Notes under the pieces: generated by a model | What the model was told of the DNA's origin: nothing | The model's input: the letters and a program-made list of their open reading frames with translations, nothing else | The model's database searches: none | IMG/VR virus record: IMGVR_UViG_3300001683_000075 | Span: 1 to 29,418 of that record | Origin: a virus | Reading direction: 5' to 3' (one strand) | Length of the DNA stretch: 29,418 nt | In this document: positions 7,700 through 29,261 of the stretch, in pieces | Numbering within the stretch: position 1 is the stretch's first letter | Layout of the letters: each line of letters starts with the position of its first letter | Translations under genes and position numbers: made by a program

Positions 7700-8428
7700 T
7701 TAAGAAGCTGCGTTTTTAGCTGCTTTCTTAGCACCATCATGATTTGAACAAGACAAGCCACGGCGTGTTAACATAGTCTTAACACCACGTACAGTCTTTT
7801 CAATAGACTCAGCAATTTGCTCTACTGTTAAGCCAGAGATATCGCCAAGAGCTTCAAGAGCATCAACGTTAGCTTTCGCACGTGATTCTTTTTGCTTTGG
7901 AATTGAAGTTATGTCGCCAGAACGTAGGAAAGATAATGCTTTACCACGAATTGAATTAATTGACTTACCTAATTTGTCAGCAAGCTCTTCAACGAAAGCA
8001 CCATTAGCGTGCATTTCTAAGAAAGTAGCTTCTTCCGAAGGAGTGTAAGTACGAGCAACCTCGATTTTTTCTGCAGGTTTTACATGGTCAGTTAATTCCA
8101 TTGAAAGAATTTTACCTTGTACTTGCTTAGCTGAGAAAGCTCCGCTTTCAAAACTAGCGGCAATATCTGCGTATGTATAAACGCCACTGTTACCAGTAAC
8201 GAAGCTAGACAAGGATTCTGCCTGCTCATCTGTAAAGGCTTTTTTATGAGCAGAACTTGCTAGTTCTACGTCATAGCCCATTTTACGTAACTTAGAGCTA
8301 ACAGAACGAGTTGTTGTATCTAGTTCTACTGCTGCTGAGGCTACGGTGTCTTGTGAAACGGTATCCATACCTTCAGCAATAGCTGAAAGGATACGAGTAC
8401 GGTCTTCTGTCCATCTTGGAGTTGTCAT
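7700..8428 (-). CDS. D5-like DNA-binding protein with four HTH/Myb-like repeats
   Basis: 242 residues in four repeating units of about 50-55 residues (approximately 5-55, 64-117, 127-175, 188-235). Each has an aromatic-Thr or similar start, a central Ala-containing helix and a terminal SVxxKhxxxG-type helix, for example TTRSVSSKLRKMGY and SINSIRGKALSFL. These look like helix-turn-helix/Myb-like modules. The size and the place between the ligase and helicase genes match T5 D5, an abundant DNA-binding protein needed for late gene expression and replication. It is coupled to the ligase subunit by ATGA and is followed by a strong terminator. The DNA-binding call is good, and D5 orthology is inferred from position. 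Confidence 0.75.
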   Translation of the reverse strand: MTTPRWTEDRTRILSAIAEGMDTVSQDTVASAAVELDTTTRSVSSKLRKMGYDVELASSAHKKAFTDEQAESLSSFVTGNSGVYTYADIAASFESGAFSAKQVQGKILSMELTDHVKPAEKIEVARTYTPSEEATFLEMHANGAFVEELADKLGKSINSIRGKALSFLRSGDITSIPKQKESRAKANVDALEALGDISGLTVEQIAESIEKTVRGVKTMLTRRGLSCSNHDGAKKAAKNAAS

Positions 8429-9189
8429 AATAAATTTTCCTTTAATATATCTTTTATTGTTAAAATTGGAATACCATAGCTTTCTGCTTTAGTACTCTTA
8501 CTTGATTTTCTTCCTTCTTCATCCACTAAGTAGTCTGTCTTCTTAGTAACAGAGGAAGTAACGGTAAATCCTAATGATTCCATATAGTCTTTTGCAAGAG
8601 TTCTATTTTTAAAATCATTAAGTTTCCCTGTAATACAGACTGATTTTCCGATACTTTCAGCTGTTGGTTCTTGTACACCTGCCTGGAATGAAAAAGGCAA
8701 ATACTCTAGGTTATCTTTATAATCACTATAATACCAGTCGAGTAAGTTAGCACAGGATTTTGGCCCCAGTCCTGCCGATACGCAACTCTTTTCATTAATA
8801 TCATTCATGTGAGAAATCTTACTAAATAGTCGCTTAGAAGCAGTGTTGCCAATCAATGAAATAGAGAAAGCAGGTAATAAAGTTTTAGCATCTACAGATT
8901 TACTTTTTTCAATCTGTTCATACAACTTTGTTCCCAACTTTTCCCCAATTTCACTAGATATTTCGTTCTTAGAAATAGAATAAATATCTGATATAGAATT
9001 AAGAGGTAACTTATCAATTGTTTTCGGTCCGAGTCCTTTAATTTTCAGAGTCTTTGCGAAATGTTCTATCAATTTACTAGTCTTAGCCTCACAATCGTTG
9101 TTCCTGCAGAAAAGTTGGTCATTTACCAACTCTAATATAGAATTACAAGTAGGGCATGAGGTAGGTTCAGTAATAGTTCTTAAATTCAT
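8425..9189 (-). CDS. ligB: NAD-dependent DNA ligase, C-terminal subunit (Zn finger, HhH, BRCT)
   Basis: 254 residues from ATG 9189; an upstream in-frame TTG is less likely. Domains in order: four-Cys zinc finger (C12, C15, C28, C33), helix-hairpin-helix segments around KIKGLGPKTIDKL (49-61) and GLGPKSCANLL, and a C-terminal BRCT domain beginning near GKSVCITGKLNDF. It contains no adenylation domain; that is in the next gene upstream. Together the two reconstitute the bacterial LigA architecture, as in T5 where the ligase is also split. It has its own promoter at 9220-9248 and is coupled to the D5-like gene. Confidence 0.88.
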   Translation of the reverse strand: MNLRTITEPTSCPTCNSILELVNDQLFCRNNDCEAKTSKLIEHFAKTLKIKGLGPKTIDKLPLNSISDIYSISKNEISSEIGEKLGTKLYEQIEKSKSVDAKTLLPAFSISLIGNTASKRLFSKISHMNDINEKSCVSAGLGPKSCANLLDWYYSDYKDNLEYLPFSFQAGVQEPTAESIGKSVCITGKLNDFKNRTLAKDYMESLGFTVTSSVTKKTDYLVDEEGRKSSKSTKAESYGIPILTIKDILKENLL

Positions 9190-9219
9190 TATGTTATTTC
9201 TCAATTTTCTATATCATAT

Positions 9220-9248
9220 ATTATACTAAAGTTTTACCAAAAAGTCAA
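9220..9248 (-). promoter_or_regulatory. Sigma70-type promoter for ligase C-terminal subunit and D5-like gene
   Basis: TTGACT (9248-9243), 17-bp spacer, TATAAT (9225-9220). The -35 hexamer contains the TGA stop codon of the ligase N-terminal gene. The predicted transcript start is near 9213, 24 bases before the ATG. Confidence 0.82.
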
Positions 9249-10228
9249 GTATTATTTTTTTCTATGTTACCACTCACTCTTTCAATAACTCGGGGGATTA
9301 TCTTGCCCGCCCTTATTACCTTTACTCGACACCCTATTTCAAGATTCAAACTTTTGATGTATGCTATGTTGTTCAAGGTTGCCCTTGAAATTACAGCGTC
9401 ATCAATTTTTATAGGGTCTAGTATTGCTACTGGAGTAACTTTTCCACTTTTACCTGTCTGCCATATCACATCTAATAATGTAGTTTCAATGCCTTCTTCC
9501 CTAGTTTTTAGAGCATAGGCTCCTCTAGGGTGGTGAGATGTGTAGCCTAACATATCATATTCTAGGTTACTATCTACACGGATTACTTTACCATCATTTG
9601 GAAATTCATTCCAATTGTTGCTTTCATCACTTGTTACTACATTAAATCCTTCATATATTAGACTACTCATATCAGTTTTATAGTAAGAACTTATTTGTGG
9701 TTCTACACTATAAGCAATAAAAGTAAGATTTCTATTTCTAAACTCATTAACATCCTTTAGATTCAATGCTCCAGCCGCGTAATTCCGTGCATTAGGAATT
9801 TCCTTAGGGGCTACTATCTCACCTGTAATTTGCATTATACCCCAGTCTTTAAATTCTAAACCAGAATGAAACTGTTTTGGTATAAGGTCAGAAAACATAA
9901 ATTTGTCAGTTACGTCTACCCCTGCGATACCATCGCCTCTAGTTATTACTTTGAAAAGTTTTCCCTTTTTATACTGTATAGCGATTGCCGCCCCATCTAA
10001 TTTAGGGGTTTCAATTACTGTACTTTTATATGTGGGTGGAGTGTCTTCCCCTTCGAATACTTTTTGTAACGAGTATAGAGGAAACAGGTGTCGTTGTTTA
10101 GCATCTGGGTTATATCCCACACGCTCATAGCCCTCTTTCTCTGCGAGGGTATCGAATTCTTCATCAGACAAAAAAGGCGAACCTTCGAAGTACGCCTTTG
10201 ATGCCTTATCTAATAAGTCTTTAGTCAT
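9245..10228 (-). CDS. ligA: NAD-dependent DNA ligase, adenylation and OB-fold subunit
   Basis: 327 residues. The nucleotidyltransferase motif KLDG is at 76-79 (K76 carries AMP), followed by RGDG (97-100), TGEIV (E137) and HHPRGAYALK. An OB-fold then starts near VIWQTGKSGKVTPVAIL. The N-terminal Ia domain, which binds NAD, is very short. The zinc finger, HhH and BRCT domains are absent and are encoded by the next gene. It seals nicks in replicating DNA using NAD+. It is the last gene of an operon containing three small upstream genes, overlapping the nearest by 8 bases. Confidence 0.9.
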   Translation of the reverse strand: MTKDLLDKASKAYFEGSPFLSDEEFDTLAEKEGYERVGYNPDAKQRHLFPLYSLQKVFEGEDTPPTYKSTVIETPKLDGAAIAIQYKKGKLFKVITRGDGIAGVDVTDKFMFSDLIPKQFHSGLEFKDWGIMQITGEIVAPKEIPNARNYAAGALNLKDVNEFRNRNLTFIAYSVEPQISSYYKTDMSSLIYEGFNVVTSDESNNWNEFPNDGKVIRVDSNLEYDMLGYTSHHPRGAYALKTREEGIETTLLDVIWQTGKSGKVTPVAILDPIKIDDAVISRATLNNIAYIKSLNLEIGCRVKVIRAGKIIPRVIERVSGNIEKNNT

Positions 10229-11450: not shown

Positions 11451-11816
11451 TTAAAGTTCTTCTTGAACTTGCTGTATCTTACTGATTACATCAGCTAAAT
11501 ACATAGCAGCCTTACCAGACATCTTGTCTATAATATCAGCATCTACTTCTTGCCCTGCACTAGTAATTTCAGCAGTTAACTTAGCGTGAGCAGCTACTTT
11601 AGATACACGCTTACTTGCCGTACCATCAGTTGAAGCTTTACTAGTAGCCTTCTTAATATATACTCCTGCCTTAGTAAGAATCATGCGAACACCATTTGGG
11701 GACTCTTCCACCTCATCTGCTATTTCTTTTACTATTTCCATTGAAGTTTCAGGAGTTGGGTCTGCACCCTCATACATTGAAACTACACTTGCTTTTTTCT
11801 CATCTGTCCATGCCAT
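11451..11816 (-). CDS. Small Myb/HTH-like DNA-binding protein (paralogue family member)
   Basis: 121 residues. The first 55 form one unit of the repeat seen in the D5-like protein and in the two genes at 28.4-29.0 kb: WTDEKKASVVSMYEG, then an Ala-containing helix, then NGVRMILTKAGVYIKK. The remainder is Ala/Lys-rich and helical. AAGGA precedes the start. The gene is followed by a strong terminator, so its product may be made in excess. The likely role is binding phage DNA or modulating transcription; this is by analogy with the repeat and not shown directly. Confidence 0.65.
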   Translation of the reverse strand: MAWTDEKKASVVSMYEGADPTPETSMEIVKEIADEVEESPNGVRMILTKAGVYIKKATSKASTDGTASKRVSKVAAHAKLTAEITSAGQEVDADIIDKMSGKAAMYLADVISKIQQVQEEL

Positions 11817-14651: not shown

Positions 14652-15062
14652 CTATAATGAAATTCGTCTAGGCTTTAGTTCCTCTGGAATATCTAGTTCT
14701 AAGTCTACGCTCAGAACACCATTCTTTAAATCAGCGAGAGATACATTCATATGCTCTGCTAACTTGAACTCTCTTGTGAAAGCTCTATTACCAATTCCCT
14801 TATATACGAACTCGGTCTTTGTCATACTATTAGGTTTTGTACCTTTGATAGTTAGTTTACCGTTGTGTTGTTCGATAGTAAGTTGGTCTTTTGACCACCC
14901 AGCCAAAGCTATCTCGATGGTATATTTCTCATCAGAGTGTTTTGCTATGTTATATGGGGGGTATTTAAGATTGCCTGAAACTCTATCTGCGTGTGAGAAG
15001 AAGTCGTCGAATCCTATCATCATGTCCCTGAAAGGGAAGTCGTGTACTAATTGTGTTACCAT
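14652..15062 (-). CDS. Small heat shock protein, Hsp20/alpha-crystallin family
   Basis: 136 residues. A short N-terminal arm (PFRDMMIGFDDFF) is followed by an alpha-crystallin domain beginning at YPPYNIAKHSDEKYTIEIAL and including AGWSKDQLTIEQ and the strand KLTIKGTK, then FTREFKLAEHMN and a conserved-type VLSVDLEL strand. It should form oligomers that hold unfolding proteins for refolding. Hsp20 genes are common in cyanophages and other aquatic phages and are thought to aid particle assembly or host proteostasis. AAGGAG lies seven bases before the ATG and is predicted to be in a hairpin (see 15071-15087). It is a single gene with its own promoter and terminator. Confidence 0.92.
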   Translation of the reverse strand: MVTQLVHDFPFRDMMIGFDDFFSHADRVSGNLKYPPYNIAKHSDEKYTIEIALAGWSKDQLTIEQHNGKLTIKGTKPNSMTKTEFVYKGIGNRAFTREFKLAEHMNVSLADLKNGVLSVDLELDIPEELKPRRISL

Positions 15063-15912: not shown

Positions 15913-16119
15913 CTAGGGGCTCGCAGGTTCTCGAAGTGGAGGTTCTGTTTGTATATTATAAAGTTGTGATACATTTTGTAATTTTAGTTGTTGAAAAAGG
16001 TTGGAGGATAACTCTGGTTTACCAAAGTATTCCACACAGTTATAAGTAATTCTTAAGGTCGGGTAAATCGGACACCCATTATCAGCTTTTTCACAATGAC
16101 TACATAAGTCAGTCATCAT
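15913..16119 (-). CDS. Small Cys-rich protein, possible zinc binding
   Basis: 68 residues from ATG 16119 (AAGGTG seven bases upstream; a GTG at 16128 and an ATG at 16116 are alternatives). Near the N-terminus it shows DLCSHCEKADNGCPIYP and then YNCVEYF, giving four Cys in a CxxC...C...C arrangement suitable for a structural zinc. It overlaps the secreted protein gene by 11 bases. No family recognised. Confidence 0.6.
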   Translation of the reverse strand: MMTDLCSHCEKADNGCPIYPTLRITYNCVEYFGKPELSSNLFQQLKLQNVSQLYNIQTEPPLREPASP

Positions 16120-16462
16120 AATGTTCACCTTCAGCTAATAGGTGTACTATATTTAACATTGTAAATCCTCTACGTAATTTTTGGCAGGTCATACTGTCAG
16201 CCTGGTCAAATCCTCTTTCGTAGTAGGGGTTTGTTTGAGTATTTTCTATATCAAAACTGTGTTTTGCCACAGCTCTTTCTATAAAATCACCACCTAGTGC
16301 TGATATGCCACCACATCTTATATGATAATTTGCCATCGCACCTAGTACTGCTCCTGTATAGTCCTTATACTCTAGAAGTAATTTTTCATTCCAGTTATCT
16401 CCAAGGCCTGAAAAACTACTTGTAGAACATAATAAGAGTAATGCACATATTAATTTTTTCAT
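16109..16462 (-). CDS. Secreted protein with signal peptide
   Basis: 117 residues from ATG 16462, chosen because it forms an ATGA overlap with the thioredoxin stop and has GGAG eight bases upstream; an earlier in-frame start would add seven residues. MKKLICALLLLCSTSSFSG is a typical Sec signal peptide with probable cleavage near residue 18; the residue before the Cys is Leu, so a lipobox is unlikely. The mature part has two Cys (HIRCGG and MTCQK) that could form a disulfide in the periplasm, and a helical C-terminus. Coupling to thioredoxin is suggestive but the thioredoxin is cytoplasmic. Function unknown. Confidence 0.7.
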   Translation of the reverse strand: MKKLICALLLLCSTSSFSGLGDNWNEKLLLEYKDYTGAVLGAMANYHIRCGGISALGGDFIERAVAKHSFDIENTQTNPYYERGFDQADSMTCQKLRRGFTMLNIVHLLAEGEHYDD

Positions 16463-16782
16463 ATTCCATACTCCTTTAACCATTCGGCAAAGAATCCTTT
16501 ACCTGTTGCTCCTGTTTGTCTCGCTACTTCTGTACCTTTAACAAACAACACTAGAGTAGGAATACTTCTAATATTGTATCTTTCAGATAGATACTTGTTT
16601 TCATCAATATCTATCTTTACAACGCCAACTTCACCATAACCATCTCTTGCAACCTCTTCTAGTATTGGAGCCATCTGTTTACATGGTTCACACCAATTAG
16701 CATAGAAATCTACTATGACTAAGTTTTTATTTAATACATCATAATCAAATTTATTATCATCTGACGCTATTACATAACTCAT
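16459..16782 (-). CDS. Thioredoxin
   Basis: 107 residues with the active site WCEPC (C31, C34), the cis-proline segment SIPTL (P75) and the thioredoxin-fold strands VIVDFYANW and TLVLFVKG. The active site has Glu where E. coli thioredoxin has Gly. No signal peptide, so it is cytoplasmic; it probably reduces the phage ribonucleotide reductase encoded about 2 kb upstream, or acts as a glutaredoxin-like donor. AGAGGAAAT precedes the start. It is the first protein gene after the structured non-coding segment 16797-17450 and shares its promoter. Confidence 0.92.
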   Translation of the reverse strand: MSYVIASDDNKFDYDVLNKNLVIVDFYANWCEPCKQMAPILEEVARDGYGEVGVVKIDIDENKYLSERYNIRSIPTLVLFVKGTEVARQTGATGKGFFAEWLKEYGI

Positions 16783-22280: not shown

Positions 22281-22436
22281 TTACTCCTCAAAGTCCTTAA
22301 GATATAAATCCGTACTAAAAAGCTTTGCTTCTAGTTCTTTTATCTCTTTGCCGATTCGTTGTTTTTCCGTACCCACCATAGTTTCGTGCATATTCTTATA
22401 GTTTTCTAATAAAAGTAACATAGCTTTAGTTTGCAT
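22281..22436 (-). CDS. Small hypothetical protein upstream of nrdA (51 aa)
   Basis: A 52-codon frame, MQTKAMLLLLENYKNMHETM then a charged helix to LYLKDFEE. It overlaps the flap endonuclease stop by 11 bases and ends one base before the nrdA start, whose AGGAG lies in its last codons. Helical, no membrane segment. Unknown function. Confidence 0.55.
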   Translation of the reverse strand: MQTKAMLLLLENYKNMHETMVGTEKQRIGKEIKELEAKLFSTDLYLKDFEE

Positions 22437-23265
22437 CTTTCTTTATCCTTTCGTTAATATCCGTCATATTTTCACTTCCTACTGCATCTTCACAGTAGGC
22501 TACTAAGTCCATTAACTCGTAGTTCTTCATTATACCCTTTGCACCAAAGTCATTTGTTGATTGAATATACTTATACTTACCCTCTAAAGGCATAGCGTCT
22601 GCGATATCTAAAGCACTGCCATATATTTGTATTAGTGCTGCGGCACGCTTAGGGCCTACACCAGGTATACCAGGTACGTTATCTCCTGTATCACCAGTTA
22701 AGCACTTAAAACTAATGTAGTCTTCTTGGTCTACCTCATAGTGTTCTGACCAATTACTGGCAGTTACTTCTTTTCTAGTAACATAACTGAACCTTGAAAC
22801 TGTAGGCTTAATAAGCAAGTCCCAGTCTTTATCCGAAGATACTAGCCATATTGTGTGCTTAGTCCATAGTTTAGATACTAGGTACGCAGCAATATCATCT
22901 GCTTCTACATTCTTGTATCTAAATATAGGATAGTGTTCTCCTAGTAACAACAGGGTTTCTTCAAAATCTTCCATGAAGTTAGCAAAATCTTCGGCTTCTT
23001 GCTCGGTTTGTTGAGCGTACTTGTCTTTCCTGTTTTGTTTATACTCAGGTAACAAATTTTTTCTGTAAGAGGAAGAACCCCAATCAGCTGTGATGTATAC
23101 GCATCCTGTGTTATATGAAGTTGCTAGGCTTTGAACTGTCCTATGGTAATCTTCTGCAAAGTTTCGTTTCTTTTGATGCTTATATCTAAAGGCTAGATTT
23201 AAGGCATCTACTATTAATATGTTGTCATTATCTTTGCTAGTTAGTTCTTTGAAGCTCTTTGCCAT
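22426..23265 (-). CDS. Flap endonuclease / 5'-3' exonuclease (T5 D15-like)
   Basis: 279 residues from ATG 23265 (AAGGT upstream); a GTG 48 bases earlier is less likely. Metal-binding acidic residues typical of the FEN family: D20 (IVDALNLAF), D61 (ITADWGSS), E121, D123 and D124 (EADD), D145 and D147 (SSDKDWD), D192 and D195 (GDTGDN). A helix-three-turn-helix follows (NVPGIPGVGPKRAA, about 196-209). It removes RNA primers and flaps for the family A polymerase, which lacks its own 5' nuclease. It is the first gene after the promoter at 23375-23403. Confidence 0.93.
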   Translation of the reverse strand: MAKSFKELTSKDNDNILIVDALNLAFRYKHQKKRNFAEDYHRTVQSLATSYNTGCVYITADWGSSSYRKNLLPEYKQNRKDKYAQQTEQEAEDFANFMEDFEETLLLLGEHYPIFRYKNVEADDIAAYLVSKLWTKHTIWLVSSDKDWDLLIKPTVSRFSYVTRKEVTASNWSEHYEVDQEDYISFKCLTGDTGDNVPGIPGVGPKRAAALIQIYGSALDIADAMPLEGKYKYIQSTNDFGAKGIMKNYELMDLVAYCEDAVGSENMTDINERIKKDAN

Positions 23266-23374: not shown

Positions 23375-23403
23375 ATTATACCGAACTTTTACCTTAATGT
23401 CAA
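23375..23403 (-). promoter_or_regulatory. Sigma70-type promoter for the flap endonuclease - reductase operon
   Basis: TTGACA (23403-23398), 17-bp spacer, TATAAT (23380-23375), both hexamers perfect. It is divergent from the plus-strand promoter 40 bp away. Confidence 0.86.
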
Positions 23404-23444: not shown

Positions 23445-23473
23445 TTGACATGCAACCCTACTTACGGTATAAT
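23445..23473 (+). promoter_or_regulatory. Sigma70-type promoter for the outer-membrane protein gene
   Basis: TTGACA (23445-23450), 17-bp spacer, TATAAT (23468-23473). About 78 bases separate the predicted start of transcription from the ATG at 23558. Confidence 0.86.
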
Positions 23474-23557
23474 ATAGGTTATTGGAATGTAAATTTCGGT
23501 ATAGGGAAAGTCGACCCTATCTTTAAACTTCGACTAGACGATAATTATGGAGAATGC

Positions 23558-24298
23558 ATGAATAAATTATTAATAGCGGCTGCAGCCGTTACTCTATCCA
23601 CTGCTTCAGCTCATGCTACCGTTGCTATTTCGGGTGATTACGAAGGTACACTTACACAAGCAGGTGTATACTCTCAAACTTTAGACTTAAAACTAGTAGG
23701 TTCTACCCCTTTTGGGTCAATAACTACTATTGTTGACGAGACTAATACTATCACAGATTTATATGCGACAGCTAAGCTACGAGGCGTAGATTTAACTCTA
23801 GGTACTGTAGAATCAGTAAGTACTATAAAGGCTTCAACTACTATTGGAGGTATGACAGTAACTATGTCCAAGCCTTCAGGTGGTAAAGAATCTTTAGATG
23901 TGAAAGGCAAATTTGCTGGAATCGATGTAACAGTCGAGGACGCAACTAGGTCTGATCGTGAAACTACTATTGGAACTACTATAGCAGGTCTTACTTCTAC
24001 TGTAAGTTACCAAAAAACAACTGCAGGTACTGTGCTAGACTTAGATACTAGTACTAAAATTGGAGGCTTCACAGTTGCACTAGAGCACGATAAAGCAGCC
24101 GATGATACTTCTTCTAACGGTGGTTCTATTTCTATGCCTTTAGGCTTAGTAGGAACTGTTAAAGGTGGCGTGTCTATAGCATCAACTGATGTTAAGACTT
24201 ACACTTTAGAAGTTACGCAAGGTATTCTTACTGGAAAGTATGAGAAGGTTGGAACTGCTGACGGAGTTGTCTCTGTTGGAGTGAAGATGAGCTTCTAA
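23558..24298 (+). CDS. Secreted outer-membrane beta-barrel (porin-like) protein
   Basis: 246 residues from ATG 23558, chosen because GGAG lies six bases upstream and a signal peptide begins there; the frame is open further upstream but only into the promoter. MNKLLIAAAAVTLSTASAHA is a classic Sec signal with an Ala-x-Ala site at residue 20. The mature protein is nearly free of hydrophobic helices and consists of alternating short strands rich in Thr, Ser, Gly and Val, ending VSVGVKMSF with a terminal Phe. That is the C-terminal beta-signal recognised by the BAM complex. I infer an outer-membrane barrel of about 10-12 strands. It has its own promoter and strong terminator. Phage-encoded porins are known in lambdoid phage PA-2. 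A role in superinfection exclusion or permeability is inference. A non-barrel secreted protein is possible. Confidence 0.72.
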   Translation: MNKLLIAAAAVTLSTASAHATVAISGDYEGTLTQAGVYSQTLDLKLVGSTPFGSITTIVDETNTITDLYATAKLRGVDLTLGTVESVSTIKASTTIGGMTVTMSKPSGGKESLDVKGKFAGIDVTVEDATRSDRETTIGTTIAGLTSTVSYQKTTAGTVLDLDTSTKIGGFTVALEHDKAADDTSSNGGSISMPLGLVGTVKGGVSIASTDVKTYTLEVTQGILTGKYEKVGTADGVVSVGVKMSF

Positions 24299-24322
24299 GA
24301 ACCTTAACTCAAAAACAAGAAG

Positions 24323-24345
24323 CCCAGCTCAATGCTGGGTTTTTT
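24323..24345 (+). terminator. Rho-independent terminator after the outer-membrane protein
   Basis: Stem CCCAGC / GCTGGG with a 5-base loop followed by TTTTTT. Confidence 0.92.
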
Positions 24346-24540
24346 GTCTGTGGTAGTTTAATTTCTTAATTTTTTTGTTCTATGGAGTTCTTTTTAATGA
24401 GTTTTTATGATTTTGCAGCGCTTTCTTATGTACTTTTTCGTTCTTTAAGCCTATCTTCCTATAATGGAGTTAGACAACTCTCTTTGACAATTGCAGGATT
24501 CATACAATAAATTATATTATAGGGAGACTCAAAAAACTTC

Positions 24541-28394: not shown

Positions 28395-28724
28395 CTAAAA
28401 ACCCTCCTTCAAGTCCTCCACTAACACCTTAAGATATAATAGTTCTGCTTTAGACGACTTTTCTAGTGTCTGTAAGCGTTCTTTATCACCTTGTAACATA
28501 TCAGCGATTTCTTGTACCATCTCTAACTTAGTGATGGGTTTTTCACCACGCTTAGTGGTATAGTCTTTCTTGACATAAACTTTTTCACGGGATAACTTAC
28601 CGATAACGGATTTAACAGTCTTTCCCATTTCATTTGCTAACTTGTCTACTGTTTCACGAGTAGGGTTAGTCTGGTACACACTTATCATGTGTTGAGTTTG
28701 CTCATCTGTGTAATTCTTTGCCAT
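28395..28724 (-). CDS. Small HTH/Myb-like DNA-binding protein, copy 2
   Basis: 109 residues. The first 50 (YTDEQTQHMISVYQTNPTRE then ANEMGKTVKSVIGKLSREKVYVKKD) form one unit of the same repeat as the neighbouring gene and the D5-like protein. The remainder is a charged helix. It is coupled to the upstream copy by TAATG, with GAGG five bases before the start. It is a tandem diverged paralogue. Likely a sequence-specific DNA-binding or transcription-modulating protein, by pattern only. Confidence 0.65.
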   Translation of the reverse strand: MAKNYTDEQTQHMISVYQTNPTRETVDKLANEMGKTVKSVIGKLSREKVYVKKDYTTKRGEKPITKLEMVQEIADMLQGDKERLQTLEKSSKAELLYLKVLVEDLKEGF

Positions 28725-29038
28725 TACAACCTCGCTACTAAAGTTTCCAAATCTACTTTAGTCATGCTCTGTAAAGATGGGCATTTCATCTCTAGTTTAC
28801 CCTCTATAAGAGTAACTAGACTTTCTTTTCTAACTACTGAATCTTTAGTGGCAGTAGTTTTACCACTTAATTTGATGTAATGACCAACGGAAACTAACTT
28901 AGCACGAATAGAACCTACAGTCTTGCCCATTGATATTGCTAGGTCTTCAACTATAGTTCTGCGTTCAGCGTCATTAGTACCTTCGCCATACAACTTAATC
29001 ATTTGAGCTACTTGCTCATTCGTGTAACCTTTTTTCAT
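28724..29038 (-). CDS. Small HTH/Myb-like DNA-binding protein, copy 1
   Basis: 104 residues from ATG 29038, chosen for its AAGGAG; a 45-base longer frame lacks a ribosome site and overlaps the upstream gene. The N-terminal unit is YTNEQVAQMIKLYGEG followed by LAISMGKTVGSIRAKLVSVG and HYIK. The C-terminus (TKDSVVRKESLVTLIEGKLE and beyond) resembles the end of its tandem partner. First HTH gene after the promoter at 29268. Confidence 0.65.
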   Translation of the reverse strand: MKKGYTNEQVAQMIKLYGEGTNDAERRTIVEDLAISMGKTVGSIRAKLVSVGHYIKLSGKTTATKDSVVRKESLVTLIEGKLEMKCPSLQSMTKVDLETLVARL

Positions 29039-29075
29039 GTTCCTTGCTCCTTCTTGTTGTTGTGTGTACCATCTC

Positions 29076-29261
29076 TCACCCATGATGTAATCTCTCTACT
29101 GAAAGCACATTTCTGTGTGAGTACTGGCGATTGATAATAGCCATTGCTTTGTTCATGCTCTTAGCAAATACATAGGCATTAGTGTGTACACCATGCTCTA
29201 GGATTTGCAAGCAAAATACATTGCTTTGGGATTTGGTCTGGTTTTTTGATAGATTTTTCAT
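29076..29261 (-). CDS. Small hypothetical protein, possibly leaderless
   Basis: 61 residues from ATG 29261. The frame stays open upstream, but that part lies inside the promoter. With the -10 at 29268-29273, transcription would start at or within a base of this ATG, so translation would be leaderless. MKNLSKNQTKSQ, then a mixed alpha/beta middle with one Cys (NVFCLQILEHGVHTNAYVFA) and a basic C-terminus. If leaderless starting is wrong, an internal ATG is used. No family recognised. Confidence 0.55.
   Translation of the reverse strand: MKNLSKNQTKSQSNVFCLQILEHGVHTNAYVFAKSMNKAMAIINRQYSHRNVLSVERLHHG

Follow-up and report, generated by a model that had tools for sequence, protein, structure and literature searches.

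Phage-borne porins are already known. The temperate lambdoid phage PA-2 encodes Lc, a porin of the OmpC/OmpF type that is reported to displace or mask a host outer-membrane protein serving related phages as receptor. T5-like phages are known for receptor blocking, and T5 itself encodes the receptor-blocking lipoprotein Llp. Surface loops are the part usually bound by phages. General bacterial porins are closed barrels of 16 or 18 strands, as a rule trimers, with a third loop that folds into the pore. Marine viral contigs from oxygen-depleted waters carry the porin gene ompL beside glnK-amtB (PMC8115048), and csgGF is known in pelagimyophages and the methylophage Melnitz (PMC7029224, PMC9004378). 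The presence of dsrA and dsrC in phages of SUP05 is well documented (PMC4164917, PMC8190135). We found no report of a version of a host outer-membrane protein in this literature on the phages of SUP05-like bacteria (PMC4164917, PMC8190135).

The window (the whole 29,418-nucleotide stretch analysed here) is a 29.4-kb phage fragment. It carries a new form of phage-borne porin-like gene in an undescribed protein family. By its sequence, this gene is the phage form, with trimmed loops, of a porin-like family found in sulfur oxidisers that carry dsrA. The DNA polymerase of the window shows 46-47% identity over 99% of its length to polymerases of T5-like enterobacterial phages. The window also encodes a D15-like exonuclease, nrdA, nrdB, a DnaB-like helicase and a UvsW-like helicase, and nearly all of these replication genes are on the minus strand. 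Other minus-strand genes are an Hsp20-type small heat shock protein (14652-15062; PF00011, IbpA-like), with a similar gene in the phage contig L159 described below, and, at 16109-16782, a thioredoxin-like gene with a small gene behind it for a signal-peptide protein that matches no family. An NAD-dependent DNA ligase is apparently split over two adjacent ORFs (8425-10228, minus strand), as it is in the sister phages. Several small, apparently paralogous genes (among them 28395-29083 and 11451-11816, both minus strand) share a YTDEQ...GKTVxSIxxKL-type motif and possibly bind DNA. The features of the locus are as follows.

22426-23265, minus strand: D15-like 5'-3' exonuclease, which opens the divergent replication operon (PF02739, PF01367, phrog_107)
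23375-23403, minus strand: divergent promoter of the D15-like exonuclease/nrd operon (12/12 matches)
23445-23473, plus strand: sigma-70-type promoter TTGACA-17-TATAAT (12/12 consensus matches; hexamers and spacing identical in the sisters L001 and L002)
23480-23557, plus strand: 5' leader
23558-24298, plus strand: ORF (246 aa) for the predicted porin-like outer-membrane protein, the phage version of a bacterial family
23558-23617, plus strand: Sec signal peptide, residues 1-20, present in all phage and bacterial copies
24278-24295, plus strand: predicted C-terminal strand with the final Phe (BAM-type signal), residues GVKMSF
24315-24348, plus strand: intrinsic terminator, stem CCCAGC/GCTGGG plus T6 (-23.4 kcal/mol, z -3.8 versus shuffles)

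The preliminary description proposed an independent transcription unit with a consensus promoter, a strong terminator, a Sec signal, a Thr/Ser/Gly-rich mature protein and a C-terminal Phe, and all of these features were recovered. The porin-like gene is the only one between its perfect promoter and its terminator, both stem arms of which have changed in L001 and L002 (CCCGAC/GTCGGG). Translation starts at 23558, since an in-frame upstream ATG at 23450 falls within the promoter; a GGAG ribosome-binding site (23549-23552) lies 5 nt upstream of the ATG. The signal peptide is MNKLLIAAAAVTLSTASAHA with an A-H-A cleavage site. The mature part contains 17.7% T, 12.8% G and 9.7% S and has no tryptophan, and the 246-aa protein is free of cysteine throughout. 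The final Phe is retained in 7/7 phage copies and in all bacterial sequences that extend to the C-terminus, and it is invariant in the bacterial alignment (A6). A 9-bp hairpin (23480-23501) near the expected transcription start is predicted in the leaders of the window and both sisters. Its folding is just mildly better than that of shuffles (z -0.7 for the whole leader, a modest -2.1 for the first 42 nt), so we claim no riboregulator.

The two divergent perfect promoters of the porin-like and D15-like genes are 41 bases apart. More perfect promoters are present within the first 20 kb of the window, indicating that the phage uses TTGACA-17-TATAAT as its usual strong promoter, elsewhere as well as at the porin-like gene. 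The promoter would drive early and strong expression. The early-region placement put forward in the preliminary description is suggested by position, with the gene divergent from the D15-like exonuclease, nrdA, nrdB and the DNA polymerase.

Two sister contigs (IMGVR_UViG_3300007760_000655 and IMGVR_UViG_3300003937_000011) carry the gene at the same location with 89-91% identity and retain its promoter, leader and terminator. Among 38 searched records with a D15 relative, they are the only two that hold it. The dN/dS between the window and sister copies is 0.14-0.18, indicative of purifying selection. Together with the preserved promoter, leader and terminator, this indicates that the gene is selected both as a protein and as a unit. 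Its dS is low compared to D15 and nrdB, which may reflect codon constraint or recombination. A scan with the leader sequence returned one extra contig (L133), but this is a GC-rich, unrelated sequence and thus a chance match. On another phage contig (L030:4891-5484), an outer-membrane-type gene (Gcw_chp, PF09694) lies between an SbcC-like gene and a D15-like exonuclease.

The window's phage group carries several surface and metabolism genes. The sister contig IMGVR_UViG_3300007760_000655 encodes CsgF (PF10614), CsgG (PF03783), a curlin-like repeat protein and a FecR-domain protein (L088:12466-16838). A protein with CHASE2 and cyclase domains is encoded upstream of this curli-type cluster (L088 9307-11136), and at L088:18586-19909 a gene for a GlnII-like glutamine synthetase precedes an IscA-like one.

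A direct protein search of viral contigs returned near-identical copies only. Distant copies were reached from phages with a related ligase, which led to IMGVR_UViG_3300048641_000170 (L159; E 2.6e-18), from there to L163 and L164, and then to L227. The seven phage copies are thus those of the window, L001, L002, L159, L163, L164 and L227. In L159 the porin-like gene is directly upstream of dsrA (481 bits versus a cut-off of 393), and tusA, iscU, a ferredoxin gene and two iscA-like genes follow.

L159:7097-10278: phage dsrA-tusA-iscU-ferredoxin-iscA-iscA cassette

Such metabolic genes (dsrA, tusA, iscU, iscA) adjoin the porin-like gene in L159 but not in the window. The long porin-like gene is immediately preceded by a gene for a small secreted GPF/N-repeat protein in three contigs (L159:5682-6038, L163:896-1258, L164:7561-7923), and in L227 the end of a similar GPF/N-type gene precedes it. 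This small protein had no library match; we presume a resemblance to sulfur-globule-type proteins.

Bacterial relatives were sought with a four-sequence phage profile (A3). Among 369 genomes sampled across the class, two contained credible relatives, both in one family (that of G151). Within this family, relatives occur in 18 of 83 genomes. Weak matches in G398, G040 and G064 were dismissed as chance, based on frame reading or E-values. All 12 relative-bearing genomes tested (the two class-level matches and ten others) encode dsrA above the curated cut-off, and relative-bearing genomes measure 1.0-1.6 Mb, features that point to SUP05-like sulfur oxidisers. We infer that the family is Thioglobaceae. 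The bacterial genes are chromosomal and adjoin a ygfZ-like gene in L195, L205 and L206. One bacterial genome has three porin-like gene copies within 4 kb (G465:C1:822246-825785). Comparison with host proteins, as proposed in the preliminary description, thereby linked the phage gene to a protein of dsrA-bearing sulfur oxidisers.

The relationship extends well beyond the signal peptide. A profile of bacterial sequences only, from which the first 20 residues were removed to exclude signal-peptide-driven similarity, was searched against the frames of nine phage loci and matched exactly the six phage copies tested. The window copy scored E 1.1e-10, versus 0.15 for the best of 1200 shuffled phage sequences. 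Profile-profile comparison of the phage and bacterial copies gave 99.4% probability, versus 0.4% for a reversed control. In a phylogenetic tree with several long branches, one branch (support 85/84) has the phage copies together on the same side, with the short bacterial copies as their nearest neighbours. Acquisition probably took place once.

The porin-like family of SUP05-like bacteria is undescribed and without any library model. The window protein belongs to it by mature-profile match, Sec signal, C-terminal Phe and turn/loop pattern, and had no match in Pfam, NCBIfam, PHROGs, PDB, INPHARED or plasmids. Pfam returned no family for the window copy (E 1) or the L159 copy (0.1) and no porin family for 12 bacterial copies (E 1), and NCBIfam had no porin match for phage or bacterial copies. 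The bacterial family compared weakly with the Porin_4 profile (25% probability, E 8e-4, reversed control 0.24), and a phage-only profile did not reach similarity to Porin_4 in profile-profile comparison. The family is porin-like in the sense of its turns and loops and has no match to the Pfam porin models.

Strands and connections were marked on the window sequence before alignment, and length changes that the aligner placed at the end of a preceding strand were counted with the connection. Turns T2-T6 are constant at 2 residues (3 in one copy) and T1 varies by three, whereas six of the seven alternate connections (L1, L2, L3, L4, L6 and L7) vary by 8-34 residues. Variation above 3 residues thus occurs in 6/7 loops versus 0/6 turns (Fisher's exact test, probability ~0.004), a pattern as produced by short turns on the periplasmic side and loops of varying length outside. 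At most positions the connections are shortest in the window group, and the longer phage copies have loops near host length. Around L3, the third-loop-like segment, the window copy has 7 residues where the long phage and bacterial proteins have 18-20. Judged by the length of this segment, the window protein appears to lack the general-porin trait of a third loop folded into the pore.

The protein may form a closed outer-membrane barrel, as the preliminary description held. Homology to a signal-peptide-bearing, Phe-ended bacterial family and the loop/turn indel pattern point to this reading, but AlphaFold, the check named in that description, gave no confident fold and hence no usable model with 3 and 6 sequences (pLDDT 32 and 29). 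Like Porin_4 proteins, the phage and bacterial copies show raised strand amphipathicity (z 2.4 for the window copy and a mean of 2.2 for the bacterial family, versus -0.4 for cytosolic controls from the window). Two properties count against a porin: aromatic residues make up 5% versus 10% in Porin_4 proteins, and roughly 12-16 residues per strand are tight for one.

The best explanation, which we consider probable though by no means secure, is that a host-derived, loop-trimmed porin-like protein remodels the outer membrane of the infected cell. An ancestor of the phage would have taken the gene for a short porin-like protein from a sulfur-oxidising gammaproteobacterial (SUP05-like) host. Selection in the phage could then have trimmed the external loops while strands, tight turns, signal peptide and C-terminal Phe were retained. 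During infection, the dedicated consensus promoter would yield a single-gene transcript, and the protein would be exported via Sec and placed in the outer membrane by the host BAM complex. There, as a channel with few loops, it may supplement or replace the host's own porin-like protein. The leading candidate for the benefit, which we regard as close to an even prospect, is permeability, with solute exchange kept up or widened once the cell's own porin synthesis has stopped. The second, to which we give appreciably less weight, is the removal of surface loops that serve other phages as receptor. The benefit to the phage could also be quite different from both.

The strongest alternative is that the gene is of the auxiliary-metabolism type and encodes a channel that raises solute uptake or product release in infection, with no role for phage receptors. 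Removing the third-loop-like segment would open up the pore of a porin, a dsrA-tusA-iscU-iscA cassette lies beside one relative, and there is a precedent in marine viral contigs with ompL right after glnK-amtB (PMC8115048). The window copy, however, has no sulfur-oxidation gene beside it, and we consider this alternative plausible but somewhat short of probable. A gene for superinfection exclusion, whose loop-trimmed product displaces or hides a host outer-membrane protein used as receptor by related phages, seems rather unlikely. The window group has the most shortened loops, and a strong dedicated promoter by early replication genes fits a function needed soon after entry. Against this, the longer phage copies retain loops of near host length and the L159 copy sits in a metabolic setting of sulfur and Fe-S genes. 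Superinfection exclusion and altered nutrient uptake, the two roles put forward in the preliminary description, both stay candidates. Permeability receives slightly more weight from us than exclusion: the short third-loop-like segment should leave the pore more open, one relative belongs to a sulfur/Fe-S cassette, and loops are retained in the long phage copies.

A broader and distinctly speculative possibility is that the gene represents a portable outer-membrane remodelling module common to different phages of one uncultivated sulfur-oxidising family. If so, the phage copies would evolve towards the same form of the variable host porin, loop-less and with an open pore. Such a form would change permeability and erase receptors at the same time, in an arms race between host and phage porins. 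It is more doubtful still that the protein is a secreted or surface beta-rich protein other than a membrane barrel, such as a fibre or an adhesin-like protein. The lack of a confident AlphaFold barrel model, the few aromatic residues and the CsgG, CsgF and curlin-like repeat protein of a sister contig would fit such a protein, but the window protein has no curlin repeats, every complete copy ends in Phe and indels are restricted to alternate connections. A virion structural protein, beta-rich and Thr/Gly-rich like many tail proteins, is highly improbable given the Sec signal peptide, the adjoining replication genes and homologues that are bacterial chromosomal genes.

Loss of most surface loops in the phage copy of an outer-membrane protein of one sulfur-oxidiser family hints at a phage that remodels the infected cell's outer membrane. 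The finding gives the window's phage group a link to a host. It also provides a specific gene, and a small protein product, for testing whether such phages alter the surface or permeability of a major dark-ocean chemoautotroph.

The described systems resemble this locus to different degrees. The preliminary description drew parallels to T5 Llp and the PA-2 porin. Llp is what the window protein was proposed to be, a surface-acting early protein of a T5-like phage, but it is a lipoprotein, whereas the window protein has a barrel-type C-terminus and, without a lipobox cysteine, nothing to lipidate; the two are not of the same kind. Lc of PA-2 is closer in logic, as a phage-borne outer-membrane porin with its own expression, although it is of the OmpC/OmpF type and the window protein has no such Pfam match. 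Phage CsgG and CsgF (PMC7029224, PMC9004378) are also encoded by outer-membrane pore genes in marine phages, including the window's sister phage, but CsgG is an oligomeric curli-export pore and belongs to another family by Pfam. Viral OmpL (PMC8115048), compared by description, is likewise the product of an apparently host-derived porin-type gene in a marine virus, but is of Bacteroidetes origin and has nutrient-gene neighbours. The closest counterparts are the undescribed proteins of the SUP05-like family, with which the window protein shares a signal peptide, the strand/turn pattern, the terminal Phe and a profile match that is significant without the signal peptide. The bacterial proteins are mostly 270-370 aa with longer loops, whereas the window protein, at 246 aa, has the shortest.
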